Shown piece after piece: positions 31,764-47,394 of a DNA stretch of 64,000 nucleotides. Below the pieces are notes generated by a model. That model was given only the letters and a program-made list of their open reading frames with translations. It made no database searches and was not told where the DNA came from. Within the stretch, counting starts at the first letter, position 1. The number at the start of each line of letters is the position of its first letter. The stretch is from Candidatus Acididesulfobacter guangdongensis. Its GTDB lineage: Bacteria > SZUA-79 > Acidulodesulfobacterales > Acidulodesulfobacteraceae. Made by a program: the position numbers and the translations under genes. The stretch spans positions 372,001 to 436,000 of the forward strand of contig SGBC01000003.1 in the NCBI GenBank assembly GCA_004195045.1. Reading direction: 5' to 3'.

Positions 31764-32135
31764 ATGAAAGAAATATTATATAAAATTAAAAATTTACCTC
31801 CTGAAATCAATAGGACGCATTTTTGGAGTTATGACAAAGAAAAAACGGGATTGCCTGCAGCTATTATAATAGAGCAGGTTCTAAAATACGGCACGCTTGA
31901 AGAAATATTTACACTTTTTAATCTTATAGATGCCGACGAATTTATGAATATTTATCGGAATACGGTAAGACCGGTATTTGAAGGTAAAGGCAGCTACTTA
32001 GTTTATAATTCGCTGTCTAAAGAAGAACAAAAAACATACGAGCAAAAAAATTTAAGCAGAAGCCCCGGTCTTTTAAAACTTTTTGACCTTATTTTACCTA
32101 TTATGTACAAAATCAAGACGCAAAAAATTGATTAA
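31764..32135 (+). CDS. Partner protein of the AbiEii-like cassette (hypothetical)
   Basis: This 123-residue hypothetical protein (KNLPPEINRTHFWSYDKEK near the N-terminus) is helical, with no recognisable catalytic motif. It precedes the AbiEii-like nucleotidyltransferase by 28 bases. Small proteins of this kind often sit directly before AbiEii/AbiGii toxins, and I infer it is the antitoxin or partner. It lacks the winged-helix look of classical AbiEi, so the role is uncertain. Confidence 0.5.
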   Translation: MKEILYKIKNLPPEINRTHFWSYDKEKTGLPAAIIIEQVLKYGTLEEIFTLFNLIDADEFMNIYRNTVRPVFEGKGSYLVYNSLSKEEQKTYEQKNLSRSPGLLKLFDLILPIMYKIKTQKID

Positions 32136-32163
32136 TTTTATAATTCATTAATTATTATGATTA

Positions 32164-32850
32164 ATGAAGTTATGCAAACTTATGTGGTTAGCGGAAACAG
32201 AAAAATTACTTCGAGAACTTTCTGAATATAAAGAGATTGAAAGTTTTATTTTCACCGGAGGCTCTGCATTATCCTACTATTTAAAGCATAGATTTTCTGA
32301 AGATATTGATTTTTTTTACTCTGCATCGTCTAATATTTTAGATAAAAAGAATGTAAGAAAATTAATAGACAAATTGAGTAATAAAAACTATAAAATTATA
32401 AATACTCTAGATGAAGAAGAGCAGTTAGATTTTTATATAGGTAATGTAAAAAATACTTTTTGCGCTTATTCAAAATTTGGACATTTATTGCAAAAAAATA
32501 ATAAAATATTGTTTGGGAATATAAAAATTGCTGACCTCGACGTTTTAACGGCTATGAAAGTTGATGCATTGATAGGTAGAGAAAAAATAAGGGATTACTA
32601 TGATTTATATGCTATATCTAAGAAATGTGGATTTAAAAAAATAATAGATGATTCACTAAAGGTAAATTCTAATTTTAATACTAAATTATTTATAAAAAGA
32701 CTCATAGAGATGGACGACAAATTAACGGACATCTATATTGATGATTATTTAAAACCAAAATATTCCATCGATAGAGTTAGTATAAGAATTTATTTTGAAG
32801 AGCAGATTGATAATTATATCAGCGCTAATTATATTAAATCTATAAAATAA
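32164..32850 (+). CDS. AbiEii/AbiGii-like nucleotidyltransferase
   Basis: This 228-residue protein of the DNA polymerase beta-like superfamily has GGSALSYYLKHRFSEDIDFFYS (about residues 33-54), the GG.AL plus S.D.D signature of AbiEii toxins. ADLDVLTAMKVDALIGREK and RDYYDLYAI follow, equivalent to the later conserved blocks. AbiEii toxins block growth by nucleotidylating tRNA or other targets during phage infection. It directly precedes the CRISPR island, which suits a defence neighbourhood. An ordinary MNT-type nucleotidyltransferase is the alternative. Confidence 0.75.
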   Translation: MKLCKLMWLAETEKLLRELSEYKEIESFIFTGGSALSYYLKHRFSEDIDFFYSASSNILDKKNVRKLIDKLSNKNYKIINTLDEEEQLDFYIGNVKNTFCAYSKFGHLLQKNNKILFGNIKIADLDVLTAMKVDALIGREKIRDYYDLYAISKKCGFKKIIDDSLKVNSNFNTKLFIKRLIEMDDKLTDIYIDDYLKPKYSIDRVSIRIYFEEQIDNYISANYIKSIK

Positions 32851-32978: not shown

Positions 32979-34124
32979 TTAATTTTTTGAAGTTGTACAG
33001 CTAACCCCTATGAGTTGACATCCTTTCATCAAAACACCATCAAGCTCAAATTTATTTTCTGGACCGCCTGAACTCTTATAAAGCTCTTTATTAAATAAGA
33101 TTTCATCGAAATTATCCTTAAAATTAATCTTTTTTATATATTGTTCTAACCAAAAACCGTCTAAAAATTCAATAGCATCATTATATTTTTTGTATTCTAT
33201 TTTAGTATTAAAATTAGGTTTTTCAGAACTATCATAATAATAAATTCTACAATCTTCAGGAAAGGAGTTTATTATCTTCATGAAAGTTTCATTGGGCCGG
33301 TAATTCAATGTCTCTATAATATTTCTAAAAATATCAACCTTTTTTTTAAATTTTGATCTATCGGCGTCAGTTTTTATTTTATTTTCTTCTTCATTCAAAC
33401 AATTATCGGATGCAGCAGCCTTTAATATATTAGAATCTTCGTTTTTTATATTATGAAATATTTTTTCCATTATTTTATGATCGTCGTAAGGTTTAAAAAT
33501 ATCTCTATTGTATCCATCGGAATTGCAATAAAATTTTTCTATTTCATCTGACTCTATTATTTCAATAAATTCAATAGAGCTGCAATAATGTTTTTCGGTA
33601 TTTTTTATTATCTCAAAGCTATGCAGTTCAGTTAAATAATCAAAATTTATTTTTATTTTATCTGCAATACTTTCAGGAATGTTTTTTTCGTTGTCAAATA
33701 TGATTTTCCAATCTCGTGCCGATAAATAAGATGCGTCAAACTTATTCTTAAATTTCTCTTTTAAATAGTAATAAGAATATGCAGACATCGCCTTAGAACC
33801 TCCTGTAAAAAATAAATGCAATTTCCCATTATTAGAATTTTTTGCTATTTTTTCCAGTTGGTTTTCTATAGCTTTTTTGCTGCCAATATTCGTAATATAT
33901 ATTATTTCCTGAAATTCTACTTTTTGAACATCGTTGGCATAATCGGGTGAGAGATTTTCTTTTGAAAAATATTTTTGAAGACTTTCTGCATATTCTTTTG
34001 TACTATCTTGATTTATACCTGAATTTTTTTCTGAACATATCAGCCATATTTTTTTTAGATACTTATTTTGTCCAATAAAATATTGTAAAGCAATATAATT
34101 AGGTAATGGGTTAGTACCAATCAA
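32979..34124 (-). pseudogene. CARF-nuclease (DUF1887-like), eroded at both ends
   Basis: This 381-residue ORF carries a CARF-like N-domain (IGTNPLPNYIALQYFIG; FFTGGSKAMSAYSYYYLKEK) and a C-terminal restriction-like fold start (FLDGFWLEQYI; then FELDGVLMKG and IGVSCTTSKN). The family should open with one more beta strand. The codons for it (DLVLLIGTNP) are in frame upstream of the only start, a TTG, and run into a TGA 10 codons before it with no ATG. At the other end the ORF stops right after SCTT, where members normally continue through further nuclease residues. After the TAA the frame still reads ALKLICLIRQL before another stop. I infer a decayed cyclic-oligoadenylate-sensing nuclease. A functional short variant is possible. 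Confidence 0.6.
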
Positions 34125-34164: not shown

Positions 34165-36618
34165 AGTCTCAATCCCTTTTAAATCAGGGAAATATTCAAA
34201 TGATGCGGGAGATGTTTTCGTTTCAAACGCTTTTTCATATACAGGTCTCAATCCCTTTTAAATCAGGGAAAATATTCAAATAAGGGAAAGGATTATTCGT
34301 TGAAGGAGAACTTAACATTGTCTCAATCCCTTTTAAATCAGGGAAATATTCAAATAAAACTTGATAATTCTAAGGCGTCTATATCATTAGGCGCTGTCTC
34401 AATCCCTTTTAAATCAGGGAAATATTCAAATATAAGGAGGCTTTAAAATGAATAAAAATTATTATTTTTGTCTCAATCCCTTTTAAATCAGGGAAATATT
34501 CAAATCCTTCTTTAAGGTAAGAACTACCGTACATGTGTCTATGTACGTCTCAATCCCTTTTAAATCAGGGAAATATTCAAATCCTTCTTTAAGGTAAGAA
34601 CTACCGTACATGTGTCTATGTACGTCTCAATCCCTTTTAAATCAGGGAAATATTCAAATCCGGATACGACTTAGAAAAAAACGATGGCGAAATATTCGGT
34701 CTCAATCCCTTTTAAATCAGGGAAATATTCAAATTCAATTGACAGATGCGCAGGTTAAAACTGCCGAGAGGCGTCTCAATCCCTTTTAAATCAGGGAAAT
34801 ATTCAAATAGTATAAGAAACTCGTCCAACAACAGAGGCAGTTTTTGTCTCAATCCCTTTTAAATCAGGGAAATATTCAAATTCAATTGACAGATGCGCAG
34901 GTTAAAACTGCCGAGAGGCGTCTCAATCCCTTTTAAATCAGGGAAATATTTAAATTTTACAAATTTAAAAGATTTTGAAAGATTGAATAAACTTTGTCTC
35001 AATCCCTTTTAAATCAGGGAAATATTCAAATTTACATGGAAACTAAAGAAATAAGAAGAATTGCAGATGAGTCTCAATCCCTTTTAAATCAGGGAAATAT
35101 TCAAATTCATATTTATTATTTATTTATTATCAGCTTTTATCTATTGTCTCAATCCCTTTTAAATCAGGGAAATATTCAAATTTTATAGTTTTTATATAAA
35201 CTTTTCAAACTAAATTTAGTCTCAATCCCTTTTAAATCAGGGAAATATTCAAATCAAGCCAAATAAACCCGCCACCGCATTAGGAAAATAGGAAAGGTCT
35301 CAATCCCTTTTAAATCAGGGAAATATTCAAATCTGAAATAAGAAGCAATTCTTATTTCAGCAGCACTATAGTCTCAATCCCTTTTAAATCAGGGAAATAT
35401 TCAAATTTAGCTAATAAGGAATTTGAAAACGTTTTGTGTGTGTTTTCAGTCTCAATCCCTTTTAAATCAGGGAAATATTCAAATTCTTATTTCAGTAGAA
35501 GTCTTAAAAAGGATGAGTATAAGTCTCAATCCCTTTTAAATCAGGGAAATATTCAAATATTTGAGGGCATTAAAGTTTTCTTGGGACGGCAAAACAAATG
35601 TCTCAATCCCTTTTAAATCAGGGAAATATTCAAATTAGGAAATATTTTTATTCAGACATAAAAGATTTTGAAAGGTCTCAATCCCTTTTAAATCAGGGAA
35701 ATATTCAAATAAATAAAAAAAAGGAGATTAAAAAATGAAAATGAATGAAATGTCTCAATCCCTTTTAAATCAGGGAAATATTCAAATGGGGAGTTAAAAA
35801 AAGAAAGTGTATTTAATTTTGAAAGTCTCAATCCCTTTTAAATCAGGGAAATATTCAAATTTTTATCGCATATACATTATTTATTCTTTATTATTTTATC
35901 TTGTCTCAATCCCTTTTAAATCAGGGAAATATTCAAATAAAAAATAAAATAAAAAAAAATTTTAAAGCCAGCCGAGTCTCAATCCCTTTTAAATCAGGGA
36001 AATATTCAAATTCGTAGCAAAAAAACAGGGCAATAATATTGCCTTTCACCGTCTCAATCCCTTTTAAATCAGGGAAATATTCAAATAACAATAAAAAAAG
36101 GAGAGTTATTATGTTAGATGAAGTGTCTCAATCCCTTTTAAATCAGGGAAATATTCAAATGAAGGCAGCAATGCCTTCTTTAAGGTAAGAAGCGCCGTAC
36201 GTCTCAATCCCTTTTAAATCAGGGAAATATTCAAATCGGTAAGCTGAATGCTGACGTTATTTTTCAGGGTAGTATTTGTCTCAATCCCTTTTAAATCAGG
36301 GAAATATTCAAATATTTATTCTAATGATGAAAAATCATTAGAATATCAAAAATGTCTCAATCCCTTTTAAATCAGGGAAATATTCAAATTCATAGGGGAT
36401 CAAAGAAGGTTTAATTTTTATTTTTTCCGTCTCAATCCCTTTTAAATCAGGGAAATATTCAAATATAAAATAAAATAAAATAAATATAATTAAAAAAAGG
36501 ATAAGGTCTCAATCCCTTTTAAATCAGGGAAATATTCAAATTTAAGTAAGGAGTTCTTAACTCCCGAAGGGGAGTTAAAGAAGTCTCAATCCCTTTTAAA
36601 TCAGGGAAATATTCAAAT
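34165..36618 (-). CRISPR. CRISPR array, 33 repeats of 36 bp, type III-like
   Basis: Thirty-three copies of a 36-base repeat (on the plus strand starting GTCTCAATCCC, centre TTTTAAATCAGGG, ending ATATTCAAAT) alternate with 32 spacers of 37-44 bases. On the minus strand the repeat ends ATTGAGAC, a variant of the 8-base 5' handle (ATTGAAAC) of Cas6-processed systems, so transcription runs leftward from the cas1 side. Variant repeats lie toward the left: an inserted A at 34245-34281 and a C-to-T at 34920-34955. The first repeat is 34165-34200 and the last 36583-36618. Spacers at 34506-34546 and 34583-34623 are identical, as are 34735-34772 and 34882-34919. The repeat holds a CCCT/AGGG stem. Confidence 0.98.
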
Positions 36619-36921
36619 GCTGCCTTTTGTAACTTATTTAATTTATTAAGTTATATGGCTCGTTTTTCGTAATGTATCGGTTATCCACAACTTATTAACA
36701 AATTTATTGTTGAAAATTTAAATAAATACATAAGCTTAAACCAATATACATAATTACTTCCGTTAAGTCAACATTTTTTTGTAAAATAATAGATAACGGA
36801 AAATAGCATTAATACTGATACTCTTTTGTAACTTATTGATATATTTATTATATAATTAAATTACTTTATTTAATTGAATTATCTTATTCATTTTTATTGT
36901 ATATTTTAAGTTCACTCTAAT
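36619..36921 (-). promoter_or_regulatory. Putative CRISPR leader
   Basis: This 303-base AT-rich region lies between the array and cas1, on the side predicted to be upstream of crRNA transcription. CTTTTGTAACTTATT occurs at 36624-36638 and again at 36823-36837. TTATCCACA, a consensus DnaA-box 9-mer, is at 36681-36689. I can point to no clear promoter, and no ORF is visible. Confidence 0.6.
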
Positions 36922-37908
36922 TTAAGGGTATGGCATAGCAACCTGATTTATTGGTATAAAATCTGTTCTATTTGTTATTGATTTTTTTAGCATATTAATC
37001 CTATCTTTAATATAAAGTCTTTTAGATTTTGGGGTCGATTCAGCCATAAGCTTGTCATAATGATTAAAATATTTTTTCATGGCATGATTTTTTAAAAATA
37101 CCCCGCCTGTTGAAGATACAAAATCATCTTGAGCAATTATTGATTTATTTATAAGTTTCAATGTAAAACCGTCTATTGAGCTTCTAAACTCTTCAACTAA
37201 ATCCAATGCAAGAGATGGACGCCCATAATTTATACCGTGTAAAAAACCGATATATGGGTCAAATCCATTACCGAATAACATATTTAATATTTCATTGGTA
37301 ATCAATGTATATCCGAAACTCAATAAAGAATTTATAGGATCTAATGATGGATTCTTTTCTCTAACTGTAAAAATAAAATTTTCGTTTCTTATCATCATTT
37401 TAAAAGCTTTAAAAAAGTATGCTGCTGCAATGCCTTCAACCCCCATGATAGAATTTATAGTAATTTTATTATCTAATTGCAAAATGCAATTTTTAATTCC
37501 GGTTAATATGTCTTTAAATCTAGATATTCCATAGTTTTTAGAAAAAGAGTAAATAAGGTCAATTTCGTTATTTAATTTAGATTTAACAATCGTTCTGGCT
37601 AATTTTATTTGATATTCTTTATCTAAAAATCTTTCATATTGTATTAATCTTAAAAAAATATTTTTAGATTCCATAGCAGTCAATCTTCCATGACATTTCC
37701 CATTCATCGTAAAAAATGAAACATCTATATTGCTTTCCAATAAAAAATTAATAGCTTGCGTCGTAATTTGAATATTTCCGAATAAAAAAACCTTATCTAT
37801 TTTTATTATAGGTATTTCTAAAATAGTTTTAGAGTTTTTTTGTACAGATAGTCTTCTTGATATTTTTGTTACAACTGCGCCCTGTTCTGAAATATAAAGT
37901 GTCGACAT
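36922..37908 (-). CDS. cas1: CRISPR integrase Cas1
   Basis: This 328-residue Cas1 is the integrase that inserts prespacers at the leader end. The N-terminal beta domain opens TLYISEQGAVVTKI. The helical catalytic domain holds the metal-binding Glu in IMGVEGIAAAYFF (about residue 152), the His in PYIGFLHGINYGRPSLALD (about 219) and the acidic LVEEFR (about 234). It is stand-alone, not fused to the reverse transcriptase as in RT-Cas1 systems. It is the last gene of a minus-strand cas2, RT-PrimPol, cas1 series, next to the leader. Confidence 0.95.
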   Translation of the reverse strand: MSTLYISEQGAVVTKISRRLSVQKNSKTILEIPIIKIDKVFLFGNIQITTQAINFLLESNIDVSFFTMNGKCHGRLTAMESKNIFLRLIQYERFLDKEYQIKLARTIVKSKLNNEIDLIYSFSKNYGISRFKDILTGIKNCILQLDNKITINSIMGVEGIAAAYFFKAFKMMIRNENFIFTVREKNPSLDPINSLLSFGYTLITNEILNMLFGNGFDPYIGFLHGINYGRPSLALDLVEEFRSSIDGFTLKLINKSIIAQDDFVSSTGGVFLKNHAMKKYFNHYDKLMAESTPKSKRLYIKDRINMLKKSITNRTDFIPINQVAMPYP

Positions 37909-38042: not shown

Positions 38043-41000
38043 TTAAATCTCAATAAAATATTTTATAGAGCCATCTGTTTCATTTTTGATATCATTATCA
38101 TTATGTTCAGTATTGTTAATATTTCTTTTATTGTCAACTGATATTCTATATAACTTTCCATATTTTGTATTTAGATAGTTTAATTCTTTATTTTTAAAAA
38201 TTGCATCTATATTCCCTTTTATTTTATTAAAAAATTGCAATTTTTCAGAAAGTTCTTTTTTTGCCGAAATAAATTCTAATATTAGATTATCAATTTCCGT
38301 TTCTGTCTCTAAGTTTATTTCGTTACTTGATGTTTCAGATGAAAAATATGATTTATCTTTTATAATTAATTCTAAATCAGATATTTTTTTCTGTTTATTT
38401 TCTATAGTAACATCAGTATTAGATTTCACATCGGAAGATTTATCGTTAAATTTCAAGATGGTGTCTGCTTTAATTTGGTCTTTTTCCTGATTTTTCGCAT
38501 TTTCCGATTCTTTCAATTTAATTTTTAGCATCAATTCGTCTTCGGCTTTCAAATCAGCTATTTTCTTATTAAAATCTTTTAGATGCATTGTTATATTTGG
38601 ATATTCACCCTTTTCAATTTTAAATTTACAGTTGCATCCAACTTGCGAAGTTATATATGAAAGCCATTCTCTTATTTTATAGCATGATATAGAATATTTA
38701 TCGCCTTTTACTTTATTTATATACTTTTGAGTAATATTTTTATCGTAATTTGCACAATAGCTAATTATATAATGAACTAATTTTTTACCGTTATAAGCAT
38801 ATCCTATTGAATATAATATCGATAATCGTTCAGTGTGAGTTAAATATTTAGTTATTTTAACTTTATCGTATAAATATTTTAAAACATCGCATTTATCAAG
38901 AAGTATCTTAAGCTCTTCGCTTTCTATATCCGATAATGCAATTTCTGTGTCTATTGCCCCTATTGCCCTATAATTTTTTCGGTTTAATATCTCTTTAATA
39001 GATTGTTCAGAAATTCTTTTTATATCATTTATTATAAATTTAAACTGATTTACAATTTTATCGCCTTCGTCATTCACAAAATATGTTTCGGCGCCTGTCA
39101 ATAGATTTATACCAAGCGGCAGTTTTATTAGACTTCCTGCAGCATCTTTATTTATCTTATTTTCTTTTGGAAAAATTTCAATATTTATATGAGGTCTAAA
39201 TTTATGCTTATTAATAAAATAATTTACAAATTCCCTGCCTGTTTTTGCCAAAATAGGTTTTTCAAAAAAGAACCATACATGATAACCTTTATAACCGCTG
39301 AATTCGACGTAGCAATCAGAATCCGTTTCTGCTTTCAAGCTATTTTTAATTAAAATAGAATACATTAGTGCTTCATTAAGATAATCTCTATATTCGTTTG
39401 AATCCAAAGAAATACTTTTTATATGCTCCGAATTAATATCGATATCTATTACAGCATAATTTATGCAGTTATCGTTTCGAATAATATATTCGCCAATAGT
39501 ATTGATGCCGTTTATGTGCTCAAAAATAACATTTTCGTCTAATTGGTTATTTATTTTAGTATAAAATAATTTTTGATTTTTATTGATTAAAGCTTTAGCG
39601 TAATAATTTTCGGCTCCGGTAAAAATGTTCAGATATTTTAAAGCAATATCAACATTATTTATATCTATAATCTTCTTGTTATCTTGGTAAGTAGCACTGC
39701 TATCGTAATAACCTGCGTTAATTATGTTATTTATATTATCTTTATTGTCCTTTTTATCTTTATTTTCAGCAGCCATTTTTTCTGGAGTTAAAATATCTGC
39801 ATCTGGTACACTATCGTATAGAGACTTGCTGTCTGTTTTATTTTCTGTCTCCGAGTCCTTATTTTCCACTTCAGATTTTTTTTCATCTATGTTTTTATTT
39901 ACATTTTGATTAATGTTTATGTCGTTAGTTCCTTCTTTTTTTTCAGTTCCTTTTTTGTAATCCTGCATCTTTTCAGAAAGTCCGGTTAAACCCATTCTTC
40001 TGTATATTTCTGACAATTTTTCGTATCCGTCTGTAAAATTCGGATTATTTTCAATAAATCTGTTTAATAACCTTATGGCCTTTTCATACTCATTTTTTGA
40101 CACAAAATAATCGCTTATATTCAAAATTCTTTCTGTATCTCCGCTTTTTTCAGAAATAAAATCAAAAGAATCTCTTTCTAAATCTAATTCATTGCTTAAA
40201 ATAGCCGCATCTAATTTAATATCTCTCTTACATTTTTTATACTGTTCATTTTCATTTACATTTTCATTTCCTAAATCATCAGACAAGATTTTATCTTTAA
40301 TGGATTTAATAATAAACGATGAAATATCTTTCTGAAAGTTTTTTGCAAATAATGCGCTTTTTAAAATTGATAAACCAACATTTAATTCAGGCTTTTCAGC
40401 TATTAATCGATCTATCAGTTCGACTATCTCCTGATAATTATCCTTATTTGCTATTTTTATGTCAAAATAATTCAGCCAGCCGTCAATTATGTTATCTAAA
40501 TATATATTCTTAATGCCGTTTAAAGTTAGTCCGTTAATTTTTTCTGAAAAATTACACAATGATTTTTCTGATGGGTATTTACCTGAGCTGTTAAAATGAT
40601 ATCCGAGAAAATCAAATCCTTTTCTGTTGTCATCACCGATTTTTATGTTTACTATCGAAGTCTTTTCTTTTGATAATTCCAATATTAAATTTTCTTTAAG
40701 GTATCTTTCAGATATATCTTTAAGTTTATAGATATTTTCTTCCGAATCAGAAAAAATTACAAAATCATCTGCATATCTTAAATATTTTGAATTTGACTCT
40801 TTAAAAATGATTTTATCAAAATCGTTTAAATAAATATTCCCGAAAATTGGAGATGTAGGGGCACCAAGGGTAATTCCAGTGTCCTTGCCTTCAGCCGAAT
40901 TTACAATTATTAATCGCAATAAATTTAAGAAAGGTTTATCCTTTATGCGTGCATTAATCTTTTCATTCAAAATCCCGATATTTATAGAATCAAAAAAGGC

Positions 41001-41375
41001 ATGTATATCTGCACTGCAGACATATGATTTGCGTGGTCTATAACCGTAAGAGCATCTTAAAAATTCTTTCTCAAAAATAGGTTCCAAAACATTTAGCAGT
41101 CCGGTATGAACTACTCTATCGACTACAGAAGGTATGCCTAATACTCTAATTTTTCCGGAATTTGGTGATTTATATTTAAATTTTGCTATGGGCTTGGGTA
41201 TATACGATGAAGTTTTAATTTCATCGATTAATAAATGGAGATTTCTGTCTAATTCAGATGCATATTTTTCAATTGTTATGTGGTCCGTACCTGGACCTCC
41301 GCCGCTTTCAGATACCCTTCTGAAAGCGGCCGCCAGATTTGTGAACTCACAAAAATTTTCAAATAAATCAGACAT
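38043..41375 (-). CDS. Reverse transcriptase-TPR-PrimPol fusion of the CRISPR adaptation module
   Basis: This single polypeptide of 1110 residues has three parts. Residues 1-265 form a group II-intron-like reverse transcriptase: GGPGTDHITIEKY, GKIRVLGIPSVVDRVVH, SADIHAFFDSI with the motif A Asp, GAPTSPIFGNIYLND, catalytic YADDF and FDFLGYHF. Residues about 390-460 contain TPR-like helices (YEKAIRLLNRFIENNPNF). After an acidic Asn/Lys linker, residues about 560-950 form an archaeo-eukaryotic primase: YAVIDIDIN (metal Asp pair), FSGYKGYHVWFFFEKPI (His motif) and GSLIKLPLGINLLTG, then a Cys pair in GCNCKF as in CRISPR-associated primase-polymerases. I chose ATG 41375 because AGGTG lies five bases upstream; a TTG at 41396 is in frame. 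It lies between cas2 and cas1. It could copy captured RNA and fill or prime prespacers. Confidence 0.9.
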   Translation of the reverse strand: MSDLFENFCEFTNLAAAFRRVSESGGGPGTDHITIEKYASELDRNLHLLIDEIKTSSYIPKPIAKFKYKSPNSGKIRVLGIPSVVDRVVHTGLLNVLEPIFEKEFLRCSYGYRPRKSYVCSADIHAFFDSINIGILNEKINARIKDKPFLNLLRLIIVNSAEGKDTGITLGAPTSPIFGNIYLNDFDKIIFKESNSKYLRYADDFVIFSDSEENIYKLKDISERYLKENLILELSKEKTSIVNIKIGDDNRKGFDFLGYHFNSSGKYPSEKSLCNFSEKINGLTLNGIKNIYLDNIIDGWLNYFDIKIANKDNYQEIVELIDRLIAEKPELNVGLSILKSALFAKNFQKDISSFIIKSIKDKILSDDLGNENVNENEQYKKCKRDIKLDAAILSNELDLERDSFDFISEKSGDTERILNISDYFVSKNEYEKAIRLLNRFIENNPNFTDGYEKLSEIYRRMGLTGLSEKMQDYKKGTEKKEGTNDININQNVNKNIDEKKSEVENKDSETENKTDSKSLYDSVPDADILTPEKMAAENKDKKDNKDNINNIINAGYYDSSATYQDNKKIIDINNVDIALKYLNIFTGAENYYAKALINKNQKLFYTKINNQLDENVIFEHINGINTIGEYIIRNDNCINYAVIDIDINSEHIKSISLDSNEYRDYLNEALMYSILIKNSLKAETDSDCYVEFSGYKGYHVWFFFEKPILAKTGREFVNYFINKHKFRPHINIEIFPKENKINKDAAGSLIKLPLGINLLTGAETYFVNDEGDKIVNQFKFIINDIKRISEQSIKEILNRKNYRAIGAIDTEIALSDIESEELKILLDKCDVLKYLYDKVKITKYLTHTERLSILYSIGYAYNGKKLVHYIISYCANYDKNITQKYINKVKGDKYSISCYKIREWLSYITSQVGCNCKFKIEKGEYPNITMHLKDFNKKIADLKAEDELMLKIKLKESENAKNQEKDQIKADTILKFNDKSSDVKSNTDVTIENKQKKISDLELIIKDKSYFSSETSSNEINLETETEIDNLILEFISAKKELSEKLQFFNKIKGNIDAIFKNKELNYLNTKYGKLYRISVDNKRNINNTEHNDNDIKNETDGSIKYFIEI

Positions 41376-41401
41376 TGCCTCACCTGATTTTGCCAAATTT
41401 A

Positions 41402-41680
41402 TTAAATAACATAACAGCTTTTATTTTCGTCTCTGGAAAAACATCCTATAATCAATTTGTTCTTAACAGACAACTTATTCAGAGAATAAATTATTATACT
41501 GTCTTTAGACTTATTTATTTTGATTTGACATATTTCCGACAACATTTTATCATATTGTTTTTTGTTTAACGTTGCTTCAAATACGCTGAATTGAACGTGC
41601 GTCCCGTAATCTTTTAAAATCTTAAATAGTTTCAATCTTATTTTGTTATCGGCTATATCGTAGGAAATAATATAATTCAT
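41402..41680 (-). CDS. cas2: CRISPR adaptation protein Cas2
   Basis: This 92-residue ferredoxin-like Cas2 has first strand MNYIISYDIADNKIRLKLFK with the conserved Asp, then DYGTHVQFSVFEATL and a DSIIIYSL strand. It is the structural centre of the Cas1-Cas2 integrase. It is the first gene of the adaptation series; its stop lies 26 bases before the ATG of the RT-PrimPol gene, or 5 bases before that gene's possible TTG. Confidence 0.93.
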   Translation of the reverse strand: MNYIISYDIADNKIRLKLFKILKDYGTHVQFSVFEATLNKKQYDKMLSEICQIKINKSKDSIIIYSLNKLSVKNKLIIGCFSRDENKSCYVI

Positions 41681-41912: not shown

Positions 41913-43682
41913 TTATAGATATTTTTTTATTTCATTCTTTAGATTTTTTATACAAACTGGATTAATTACAATTGCATTTAATTCATTAGCTCTTTTTTTA
42001 ACTGCGTCCTTTATAGCAGGAAAATATGGCTGATTTGCATATTCTGAGTTACAGTTTTCCGTCTTTATATTATTTTCTGCTGCGTTGTTTCTATCTGTAA
42101 TCCCGTCATCTTGCTTATCAAGTATATTATCTGCCGCCGTGCTGACTAAAAAACTTTTAGTAGCAAGACGTCCAACTTTATCTTGAATGGAATAAATTTT
42201 ATAGAATATTTCGGAATTAGCGTCATGTTTTTGCTGTAAAGATTTGCATTCAATCATATATATTTTATTCTTTGAAGTGAATATAACATCTATTTCATTA
42301 TCTGTGCCGTTTTTTTTGCTTAAAGAGGCATTTATCGCTGCATCATCTATTATTCCTTCATCCTTCAGGCTATTTATTTCATTGAAACAAAATTCTTCAA
42401 GCCATCCTCCTGTTAAAAAATCGACAGTGTCTTTATTTATTAAGATTGTGCCGACGATTTTTATATTGGAAGTATTTGAAATAGAATCATCAGAAATTAC
42501 TCTTTGGATATCAACTTTGCAAATGTTCATTTTTTCAAAACTGAAGAATTTTTTTAGTAGTTCAATTTTGATTTCAGTATCTTTATTTTCTTCAAAACTT
42601 TCTTCAAAACTTTCTTCAAAACTTTCCTTGTTTTCCATTGATATGCCGGTATTCTTCCCAGATTTTTCCACCTTTTTAGATAACTCTTCTTCTTTTGCTG
42701 CTTTCATCGCAACTTCTTCTATGACTTCTTTTACAGCTTCTTTTTTTAATTTTACAGTTTTTTTATCAGATTTAGCAGATGTCGTCAGCGTAAAATCTAA
42801 ATTCAATGCAAGTTCTTTGTTTTTAGACAATTTCTTTTTGTGTTCTTTTTCATTGCGATATTGTATCAATAATATAAAAAAATTTGATAACAGTTGTTCA
42901 ATTATGCTGTTTGCTGCAAAATTATCGTCAAAATAGTTATTGATAATCCATTTTGCAAAATTTTCGTCTTTTTTTGATCGTATCTTAATACTATCCAAAC
43001 AATCAAAATTTGTTATATCGACATCATATGCTTTACAATATTCAAATAACGACAACCTTCTTTTTATTATTAGTTTTTCTTCATTGCAATCAGAACAGTT
43101 AAATTGCGATATACTGCGGGTTTGGTTTGTTTTGCCAGTATTGTTAATATTATAATTATTATCGTCATAGTTGTTATTATCGCATAACAGCATTTTTTTC
43201 GACAATTCTGACAGATTGGCAGGAATAATTTCGATAATATTTTCGTCTATAGGCATATAAACTATTTTTTTTGTTTTATTGTTTTGCCTCATTGCTTCAA
43301 ATAATGCAATAGACATTATCTTTGTTCCTAAAGTTATATTTATTATAAATTCATCAAACTTAGAACCATTTTCATATATCCAAAAAGATAATTTTTCTAT
43401 AGTGTCTAAAATTGAATCTTCTTTTACGATAATCGTATAATGTTTTATCTCATTTGCTCTATCTGCTCTATCGGATGCTTCGTTGTAGTAATAACTATTA
43501 ATACTTCTGCTATTTTGATTAATTGCTTTTATTGATTCTAATGTTGCATTTACCTTATTTATTTTTTCCATTTTATCGGTTGAAATAAATAAGACGGCAT
43601 CAGGTTTAAAAAAATCCGTACATAAAATATTCGGAATAGTCTGTGCGCTGACTAACGTTATAAGAAGCGAATTATTTGGCAT
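41913..43682 (-). CDS. CARF-PD-(D/E)xK nuclease (Can2/Card1 type)
   Basis: This 589-residue ancillary type III effector has an N-terminal CARF domain (about residues 5-155; LLITLVSAQTIPNIL, and NITLGTKIMSIALFEAM with the GTK ligand loop), expected to bind cyclic tetra-adenylate. A C-terminal nuclease domain (about 420-589) has GGWLEEFCFNEI followed by the catalytic set Glu463/Asp465 (TDNEIDVIF) and Glu478-x-Lys480 (MIECKS), all intact. Known relatives degrade DNA and RNA when activated. The middle (about 280-370) is a Lys/Glu-rich coiled coil with a tandem ESFE repeat at 353-364. The gene starts at ATG 43682. The ring nuclease gene ends 111 bases upstream. Confidence 0.87.
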   Translation of the reverse strand: MPNNSLLITLVSAQTIPNILCTDFFKPDAVLFISTDKMEKINKVNATLESIKAINQNSRSINSYYYNEASDRADRANEIKHYTIIVKEDSILDTIEKLSFWIYENGSKFDEFIINITLGTKIMSIALFEAMRQNNKTKKIVYMPIDENIIEIIPANLSELSKKMLLCDNNNYDDNNYNINNTGKTNQTRSISQFNCSDCNEEKLIIKRRLSLFEYCKAYDVDITNFDCLDSIKIRSKKDENFAKWIINNYFDDNFAANSIIEQLLSNFFILLIQYRNEKEHKKKLSKNKELALNLDFTLTTSAKSDKKTVKLKKEAVKEVIEEVAMKAAKEEELSKKVEKSGKNTGISMENKESFEESFEESFEENKDTEIKIELLKKFFSFEKMNICKVDIQRVISDDSISNTSNIKIVGTILINKDTVDFLTGGWLEEFCFNEINSLKDEGIIDDAAINASLSKKNGTDNEIDVIFTSKNKIYMIECKSLQQKHDANSEIFYKIYSIQDKVGRLATKSFLVSTAADNILDKQDDGITDRNNAAENNIKTENCNSEYANQPYFPAIKDAVKKRANELNAIVINPVCIKNLKNEIKKYL

Positions 43683-43793: not shown

Positions 43794-44291
43794 CTACTTC
43801 ACAACAACTAAGAACCACCTTATAGAACTTCCTTCAGGTAATTTTATCACCCCTTCAGGCAGCCTTTCGCCGTAGTATTGGGCAAGCAGCAATTCATCGT
43901 TTTCATTTAACTGTAATGTCGTCCTGTTCACTTTAATAGGAAAACTTAATATATTTGAAAGCAATTCTGCTGTTGAGGCGTGACCTATCGCACTTTTATA
44001 TTTTCCAGATGCAATTAATTTTGAAGCATCGGCAGTGGTTATTTCTTCTATTTTTATTTCTGCCGGGAAAGTTTGAAGCATATTTATAGAAAAAGCATTG
44101 CAGAGATATTTGGAACTAGTTATTTCGATAGATTTAATTGTTTTATCTGACGTTTTATTTGATATTATCGATGACATAACTGAAATATTAATTCTTATTT
44201 TATTTATTTTATTTATTTTGTTTATTTTTTTTATTTTATGTCTATTTAAGCTTATATTTTTACTTTTTGATAGCAAAAAACCCCTAGACAT
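43794..44291 (-). CDS. crn2: DUF1874/AcrIII-1-type ring nuclease (Crn2)
   Basis: Residues 61-165 match the DUF1874 family (viral AcrIII-1, cellular Crn2), which cleaves cyclic tetra-adenylate and so switches off type III CRISPR effectors. NAFSINML (residues 65-72) is identical to the stretch I recall from the archaeal virus SIRV1 protein gp29. SAIGHASTAEL carries the catalytic His (His104, equivalent to His47). VNRTTLQL and ERLPEG carry the Arg/Glu pair (Arg143, Glu146). The first 60 residues, with a KINKINKIN run, are outside the family, so translation may start later, for example at Met39 (44177). It lies just upstream of the CARF nuclease it would restrain. Confidence 0.88.
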   Translation of the reverse strand: MSRGFLLSKSKNISLNRHKIKKINKINKINKIRINISVMSSIISNKTSDKTIKSIEITSSKYLCNAFSINMLQTFPAEIKIEEITTADASKLIASGKYKSAIGHASTAELLSNILSFPIKVNRTTLQLNENDELLLAQYYGERLPEGVIKLPEGSSIRWFLVVVK

Positions 44292-45975: not shown

Positions 45976-46230
45976 ATATATGTAAAATTAAATATATATA
46001 AATATGTTAGCTGTCAGCTTTCATTAAGACAGTAATCATATTTATTTATATACTAATAAAACTTTTTGCATTTGTAATTAAAAACAACATTGTTTTTTTA
46101 TTATAATTATTTTATAAATTTACAATCTTAGAAATTTACGATACAATTGCTTGTATGCTTTTGTGTATGCAGTATATGCAGTCGCATTAAAATCATAATT
46201 ATAAGTTATAAAATATCAGCGGATTCTCTT

Positions 46231-47394
46231 ATGAATGAAAAAATTTCAGCAATATTAAATGATTTTAAAATAGCAAAACTGAATTTTGAAATAAAAACTG
46301 AAAATGACACCTTGCTTCCTGACTACAAAGGTTCTACTTTTAGAGGCGTTTTCGGACATATTTTTAAGGATGTAATGTGCATTTCTTATGAAAATGAGTG
46401 CGAAACCTGCAATTTTAAGTCTGTATGTATGTTTAAAAAAATTTTCGACTCGCCTCCTCCTTCAAATTCATCAAGATTAAAAAATTATTCGTCCCTTCCT
46501 CATCCTTACATTATAGAGCCTCCTTTAGAAACTAAAAATTTTTATAAGAAAAATGAAATAATAAAATTTTCGTTGATTTTAATAGGACAGGCTATATCTT
46601 TATTTCCTTATTTTGCATATTCTTTCGGTTTAGCAGGCAGACGAGGCATCGGAAAAATGAAGCAGGGCAAATTTTCTCTTTTTAACATAATAAATGATAA
46701 AAATAAAGAAAAGTTATACGATTTTAAAAAAGAAGAACTGCTGCCGCTCAGAAATTACTATACTGTTAAAGATTTTATAGAAAAAACAAAAGACTGCTGC
46801 TGTACAGGAAACAGCGGCATAGCAAAAGACAGCGGCAGCAATGTTTTGAAACAATTTGTGCCGTATGATACAATAGGCTTAAAAACAGATAGAACTGCGA
46901 TATCGGCTGAAAATAATAATAATCAGCTATATAAATGCAGTAATATTTCAAAAAAAGAAATCTTTTCTGTTAATCTTGATTTTATAACGCCTACAAAAAT
47001 AATCTTTAATGAAAAAATAGTTCAAAATTTAGAATTTCATGTATATATCCGAAACTTGCTCAGAAGAATCTCTAATCTTAACTTTTTTCACTGCGTCAAT
47101 AGCGATAACAAAAAAAATGAAATTAATGATAATCCTGATAATAATATAGATTTTAATTATTATATAGAAAAGGCATACGGCGTTAGGGCAAATAATAATC
47201 TAAAATGGAAATCAGTCGACAGATATTCCAATAGACAGAAAAGGCATATGAAGATAAGCGGTTTTACCGGAAAAATTTCATTTGAAAACGTCGGACAAGA
47301 ATTTTTATGGATTATAAGAGTCGGTGAAATAATACATTTAGGAAAAAACACAACCTTCGGTAACGGAAAATATGAAATAGATTCTATTATTTAA
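46231..47394 (+). CDS. cas6: CRISPR RNA-processing endoribonuclease Cas6 (RAMP family)
   Basis: This protein of about 387 residues is of the Cas6 type that carries a cysteine cluster. The N-terminal block GSTFRGVFGHIFKDVMC with C.TC....VC, then IFDSPPP, and the C-terminal block SNRQKRHMKISGFTGKISFE and IIHLGKNTTFGNGKYEI match this family. The closing Gly-rich loop is the RAMP signature. It should cut the precursor crRNA within the repeat, leaving the ATTGAGAC handle. I chose ATG 46231; the frame stays open to a TTG at 46147. Two low-complexity inserts (about residues 185-235, 290-310) lengthen it. It is transcribed opposite to the other cas genes. Confidence 0.85.
   Translation: MNEKISAILNDFKIAKLNFEIKTENDTLLPDYKGSTFRGVFGHIFKDVMCISYENECETCNFKSVCMFKKIFDSPPPSNSSRLKNYSSLPHPYIIEPPLETKNFYKKNEIIKFSLILIGQAISLFPYFAYSFGLAGRRGIGKMKQGKFSLFNIINDKNKEKLYDFKKEELLPLRNYYTVKDFIEKTKDCCCTGNSGIAKDSGSNVLKQFVPYDTIGLKTDRTAISAENNNNQLYKCSNISKKEIFSVNLDFITPTKIIFNEKIVQNLEFHVYIRNLLRRISNLNFFHCVNSDNKKNEINDNPDNNIDFNYYIEKAYGVRANNNLKWKSVDRYSNRQKRHMKISGFTGKISFENVGQEFLWIIRVGEIIHLGKNTTFGNGKYEIDSII

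Follow-up and report, generated by a model that had tools for sequence, protein, structure and literature searches.

A CRISPR-associated reverse transcriptase fused to a TPR-containing primase-polymerase, with conserved catalytic residues in both domains

Why should a single gene of a CRISPR adaptation operon encode two polymerase domains, a reverse transcriptase (RT) and a primase-polymerase (PrimPol)? The question is raised by a 64,000-nucleotide stretch of Candidatus Acididesulfobacter guangdongensis DNA (hereafter the window), in which such a gene lies between cas2 (41680-41402) and cas1 (37908-36922). The preliminary description of this DNA located the gene correctly but left its strand unstated; cas2, the fusion gene, cas1 and the CRISPR array all lie on the minus strand. 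That description also claimed a single RT-TPR-PrimPol polypeptide, and this stands. The reading frame is uninterrupted from 41375 to 38043 and encodes 1110 residues from an ATG. Neither a frameshift nor a stop separates the domains, and related genomes also carry the fused orthologue intact. The ATG at 41375 is probably best taken as the start, since it aligns with the starts of the orthologues; an in-frame TTG upstream at 41396 offers an alternative of 1117 residues. The locus is arranged as follows.

46147 to 47394, plus strand: cas6, start uncertain
43794 to 44291, minus strand: Csx16 / STIV-B116-like protein
41913 to 43682, minus strand: Card1-like CARF and PD-(D/E)xK nuclease, accessory protein of type III systems
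41402 to 41680, minus strand: cas2, upstream of the RT-CAPP gene
38043 to 41375, minus strand: RT-TPR-PrimPol (CART-CAPP) gene, 1110 residues, ATG at 41375
36922 to 37908, minus strand: stand-alone cas1, downstream of the RT-CAPP gene
36619 to 36921, minus strand: AT-rich putative leader, judged by its position between cas1 and the array
34166 to 36618, minus strand: CRISPR array of 33 repeats (crRNA-sense ATTTGAATATTTCCCTGATTTAAAAGGGATTGAGAC), spacers mostly 37-42 nt
32979 to 34124, minus strand: second CARF-PD-(D/E)xK protein, past the array

The crRNA-sense repeat ends in GGGATTGAGAC, and this end suggests that the array is transcribed on the minus strand. At 31764-32850, next to the CRISPR locus, a small protein with weak DUF6922/DUF3784 similarity precedes an AbiEii-like nucleotidyltransferase, an arrangement reminiscent of a toxin-antitoxin pair.

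Profile and structure comparisons uphold all three domain assignments (RT, TPR and AEP). Pfam, with residues counted from the TTG at 41396, matched RVT_1 at 78-268 (E=9e-23), AEP-TOTE at 611-802 (E=8.5e-31) and TPR_11 at 431-469 (E=0.036, not significant alone). The NCBIfam model PrimPol_Msp (CAPP type A1, NF040561) scored 280.8 bits over residues 417-967 against a cut-off of 200. This model includes the TPR, so the TPR part belongs to a known CAPP and is no separate insertion. A profile built from 14 fused homologues matched solved TPR proteins (best E 1.6e-57), the GsI-IIC RT (E 4.6e-89) and the MpCAPP PrimPol (E 4e-54). The C-terminal part is thus placed in the AEP superfamily by the AEP-TOTE, PrimPol_Msp and MpCAPP matches alike. 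Foldseek aligned the modelled PrimPol domain to MpCAPP (7p9j) with a TM of 0.91 on the target, and matched the modelled RT to group II RTs; the pTM of the structure models was low (0.37 and 0.40), so they say nothing firm on domain arrangement. The best PADLOC matches were adaptation PrimPol (203 bits) and CRISPR RT (203 bits), and the adaptation role proposed earlier is supported along with the domain reading. Numbered from the ATG, the protein divides as follows.

40611 to 41375, minus strand: RT fingers and palm, residues 1-255, kin to group II intron RTs
41013 to 41024, minus strand: YVCS replacing 22 orthologue residues, net 54 bp fewer, in frame
41009-41007, minus strand: codon of RT catalytic D123, motif A
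40775-40761, minus strand: RT catalytic motif YADDF, residues 201-205
40416 to 40610, minus strand: RT thumb, residues 256-320 (...GWLNYFDI...)
39951 to 40415, minus strand: helical region with TPR units, residues 321-475, TPR within the known CAPP family model
39651 to 39950, minus strand: linker, residues 476-575, predicted disordered, weakly constrained (dN/dS ~0.43)
38991 to 39650, minus strand: archaeo-eukaryotic PrimPol domain, residues 576-795
39446-39438, minus strand: PrimPol acidic pair D644 and D646
39299-39279, minus strand: PrimPol His motif SGYKGYH, residues 693-699
39125-39123, minus strand: PrimPol motif III lysine K751
38571 to 38918, minus strand: C-terminal helical domain, residues 820-935, with C829, C898, C914 and C916
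38046 to 38570, minus strand: tail, residues 936-1110, poorly conserved (dN/dS ~0.45)

The gene belongs to the CART-CAPPs, described in publications of 2021 and 2023, and is no new kind. The earlier suggestion that such a chain is at least rare does not survive, because RT-CAPP fusions are a published and assayed class (PMC8211822, PMC10415136) and we found fused genes next to cas1 in some dozen further lineages. The 2023 report, in which CART-CAPP fusions were assayed (PMC10415136), describes proteins (CaCART-CAPP CCJ33120 and GlCART-CAPP) that likewise join an N-terminal group-II-like RT, a Prim-Pol and a C-terminal domain in one chain, with Cas1 and Cas2 separate and nearby. CaCART-CAPP is given there as 713 residues with ~120 between RT (1-204) and PrimPol (322-521), whereas the window protein has ~255 between the RT thumb and PrimPol, TPR units included, and its RT lacks one helix. 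The second relative is the CAPP_A TPR type, represented by Marinitoga MpCAPP (PMC8211822; PDB 7p9j, 7nqd), which shares the TPR, the AEP and a Cys-containing C-terminal domain but, unlike the window protein, has no RT. The window chain combines these two published types; in those portions of the CART-CAPP and CAPP literature available to us, we found no description of RT, TPR and PrimPol in one chain. RT-Cas1 and Cas6-RT-Cas1 fusions (PDB 7kft) also carry adaptation RTs related to group II introns, but there the RT is fused to Cas1, while here it is fused to PrimPol and Cas1 and Cas6 are separate genes. What is new is the conservation of both active sites, the single widespread lineage and a pattern in the spacers.

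Fused genes are widely distributed. Orthologues in the same genus and family share 57-71% identity, the closest named relative with the fusion being Ca. Acididesulfobacter diazotrophicus (L056). A scan of a collection holding one genome per species (84,980 species), in which loci were chosen via peptides from two PrimPol motifs, returned 80 loci. Single ORFs with RT and PrimPol beside cas1 occur among them in bacterial MAGs labelled as Nitrospinae, Poribacteria, Proteobacteria, CSSED10-310, Acidobacteria, Caldithrix and Brocadiia, as well as in archaeal Methanosarcinales and ANME-2, so that fusions beside cas1 recur across bacterial and archaeal phyla. In these relatives cas1, cas2 or both adjoin the fused gene. 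RTs fused to an AEP domain were reportedly also noted by Toro and colleagues (2019).

The RT-fused PrimPols placed in a tree form a single clade. In a maximum-likelihood tree of 83 PrimPol domains, all 18 of 18 RT-fused rows fell in one clade (support 95/94), and the fusion state changed once against a shuffled mean of 16.5. The RT-less rows next to this clade are mostly Latescibacterota. This tree has long branches and an unsettled bootstrap, and it leaves out two very divergent RT-linked PrimPol-like domains (L108 and L126). Since all the RT-fused PrimPols it includes share one clade, the tree favours a single origin of the fusion followed by spread through transfer.

Both active sites are conserved throughout the aligned fusions. 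RT residues D123, D203 and D204 are invariant in all 14, as are D644, D646, H699 and K751 of PrimPol, which represent the AEP acidic pair, the SxKGxH motif (SGYKGYH in the window protein) and the motif III lysine. Four cysteines of the C-terminal domain (C829, C898, C914 and C916) are equally invariant and could form a metal site. Comparison of the window gene with its orthologue L007 gave dN/dS values of ~0.05 for the RT, ~0.12 for the TPR, ~0.09 for PrimPol and ~0.07 for the C-terminal domain, and of about 0.4 for both linker and tail, all of them rough because dS is near saturation.

These residues bear on whether PrimPol is a working enzyme. According to the 2023 study (PMC10415136), the RT domain of two CART-CAPPs primed and extended on both RNA and DNA, the CaCART-CAPP PrimPol domain had neither polymerase nor primase activity, and GlCART-CAPP showed no activity once its RT was mutated; an inactive PrimPol was put forward there as a common CART-CAPP feature. 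The division of labour put forward in the preliminary description, with the RT copying RNA and PrimPol supplying primers, differs from what those assays showed. Its further idea, that RNA could become a double-stranded prespacer with no help from other host enzymes, would in this copy depend on an RT that carries a deletion. A PrimPol kept purely as a scaffold, with all synthesis carried out by the RT, has been proposed for the published CART-CAPPs, and we give it somewhat less than an even chance here. Three of our loci (L113, L108 and L126) also speak for it, each encoding an RT-fused PrimPol whose catalytic residues are altered, not far from another, intact CAPP that has no RT. Two of these pairs lie as follows.

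L113, 2-2107 and 4600-7362: RT-fused altered PrimPol and intact CAPP
L108, 2616-5327 and 5407-7860: RT-fused altered PrimPol and intact CAPP

Against a scaffold role stand the low PrimPol dN/dS and the catalytic residues invariant in 14 fusions, although loci collected by two PrimPol motif peptides favour intact domains and decayed ones could be missed. The invariant residues fit awkwardly with the published view that such fusions generally carry a dead PrimPol. They leave a second active polymerase in this lineage possible, while residues alone are no proof of one. In L113, L108 and L126, labour may be split between the paralogues.

The RT of the window copy is shortened, a feature that the preliminary description missed and that is new here. 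YRPRKS and motif A (ADIHAFFDSI) are separated in the alignment by YVCS, which replaces the 22 residues ALQAVIKTEKYCKDNFVNFAFN of the orthologues, so that the segment is 18 residues (54 bp) shorter with the frame kept. The earlier reading of YADDF and all upstream RT blocks therefore holds for the catalytic residues, every one of which remains, but not for this segment. In the model of an orthologue (L009) the segment forms helix 118-130 ahead of the motif A strand. The window model keeps that strand but lacks this palm-side helix, and its confidence falls around the gap. Foldseek fitted the window RT to group II RT structures less well than the orthologue RT: on 5irg_A the TM was 0.74 at 7.0 A for the former (0.73-0.74 across 5irg chains) and 0.84 at 3.6 A for the latter.

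The shortened RT may therefore be weakened in this host, in whose genome we found no other RT. A stronger version of this idea holds that the RT is defective and that the module runs on PrimPol alone, taking DNA spacers, or is decaying. We lean against this reading while regarding it as plausible. It draws on the 4 residues that stand for 22 just ahead of motif A, on the poorer structural fit, on a 64-kb window in which neither Cas10 nor another effector was found, and on a frameshift at an A6 run in the genome's other cas1. Yet the catalytic residues are all present, dN/dS shows the flanks of the gap to be constrained as strongly as the rest, and the missing stretch might reflect a recent or a tolerated loss, or a fault in the assembly.

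Two further alternatives fare badly. A group II intron maturase or retroelement ORF caught by chance inside a CRISPR locus is highly improbable: the closest solved RTs are indeed group II RTs and TIGR04416 matched at 215 bits, but that score is below the cut-off of 300, Pfam shows no maturase-specific or endonuclease domain, and the CAPP fusion beside cas1/cas2 is kept across phyla. A defence RT of the UG10/DRT10 type, fused to a primase, can hardly be the answer either, for although UG10 systems combine an RT with an AEP domain and PADLOC RT_UG10_large matched the PrimPol and C-terminal part (residues 584-923), it did so at 94 bits against 203 each for adaptation PrimPol and RT, the presence of cas1, cas2 and an array in the operon agrees with adaptation, and UG10 RTs are set apart by their published description as another RT class with no tie to a cas1-cas2 operon (PMC8934634).

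The effector that this module might serve is encoded elsewhere in the genome. A complete type III-A locus on contig C1 contains the sole confident Cas10 (94.7 bits); contig C4 has two matches, both far weaker and below the cut-off. The C1 locus encodes Csm1-5, its own Cas6 and the frameshifted cas1, and has an array of ~50 repeats whose sequence differs from that of the window repeats but shares their GGGATTGAGAC end. This genomic Cas10, together with the CARF nucleases adjoining the adaptation module, associates the latter with type III systems. In two relatives (G011 and G002) Cas10 and RT-CAPP share one contig. The shared repeat ends suggest that the RT-CAPP module may use the C1 effector in trans. 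The surrounding region (G000:C1 584001-620000; L141, L142) also contains two cas2-like genes, and the frameshift in its cas1 may be a sequencing fault. Beside the type III-A genes, a 1146-residue protein (L141 1986-5426) matched nothing in Pfam or PADLOC at our thresholds.

We propose that the CART-CAPP acts with Cas2 and Cas1 as a type III adaptation module, with the C1 effector in trans and the RT maybe weakened, and we hold this as probable. The domain identities, the operon, the conservation, the single clade and the conserved residues form its basis. RT priming and extension, and binding of CAPPs to Cas1 in a complex with Cas1-Cas2 (the latter in PMC8211822), were demonstrated by others on relatives and would apply here by analogy. 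The RT would start and extend DNA with captured RNA or single-stranded DNA as its template; PrimPol might help to make the prespacer double-stranded or fill in once integration is complete; the complex would be kept together by the TPR and C-terminal domains; and Cas1-Cas2 would insert the product beside the leader. Here the module would supply the type III-A effector encoded on contig C1. We infer the order of these steps and the role of PrimPol.

Spacers in arrays of this family carry a strand-pure start-site signal. Among 395 unique spacers from family arrays that share the window repeat (window 34166-36618; L163-L172 and L180-L187), 51 contain a ribosome-binding site and ATG when read antisense to the crRNA, and 0 contain them on the other strand. 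The share expected in the window is about 2-2.5%. For some of these arrays, on contigs or genomes without an RT-CAPP seen (e.g. G005 and G006), the link is the repeat. Two arrays with another repeat in the same genomes gave 1 of 71 (Fisher p=0.002, a guide only, as spacers of one array are not independent events); counts were compared directly because the control locus is mostly array, which makes its per-strand expectation (7.3) unreliable.

The start-site spacers are suggestive of capture from transcript starts, but we rejected their enrichment as proof of RNA capture. RT-less CAPP arrays from other phyla show a weaker form of it (28 sense and 9 antisense start sites of 401), a review describes start-codon and hairpin preferences in type III adaptation generally, also without an RT (PMC9048733), and strand bias can arise by selection for crRNAs that bind transcripts (PMC7515739). 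Hairpin enrichment was likewise discarded as a mark of the RT, being about threefold in RT-CAPP, same-genome control and RT-less CAPP arrays alike. In one array (L165), spacers 4, 43 and 44 overlap or are related and have a common hairpin before the ribosome-binding site; its two sequence versions both pair, so the hairpin was present in the source.

A more specific reading, which we consider unlikely at present, is that two working polymerases turn the structured 5' leader RNA of invaders, with ribosome-binding site and start codon, into double-stranded prespacers. If true, it would account for arrays with strand-pure, start-site-rich spacers. Because both polymerase sites are apparently under selection in a deeply conserved lineage, why CART-CAPPs keep their Prim-Pol becomes directly testable, and the spacer signature offers a genomic readout beside biochemistry, with a same-genome control array.

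Searches for the sources of the spacers gave little. The window array matched none of 50,697 phage records, and against its own genome and relatives it found only related-repeat arrays and weak AT-rich matches. When viral contigs were scanned for exact matches to four shared spacer cores, just two chance-like 18-nt hits came up, and their flanks did not agree. No RT-CAPP homologue was confirmed in viral contigs, and for plasmids the matches listed were all RTs, with no record covering 80% of the query. A leader-proximal spacer of the C1 array (L173) perfectly matches 37 nt of the genome's own DNA (G000:C1:525663-525699). Its crRNA has the sense orientation of the matched gene and so would not pair with that mRNA; the gene, judged by eye, is an oxoacid oxidoreductase-like ORF.
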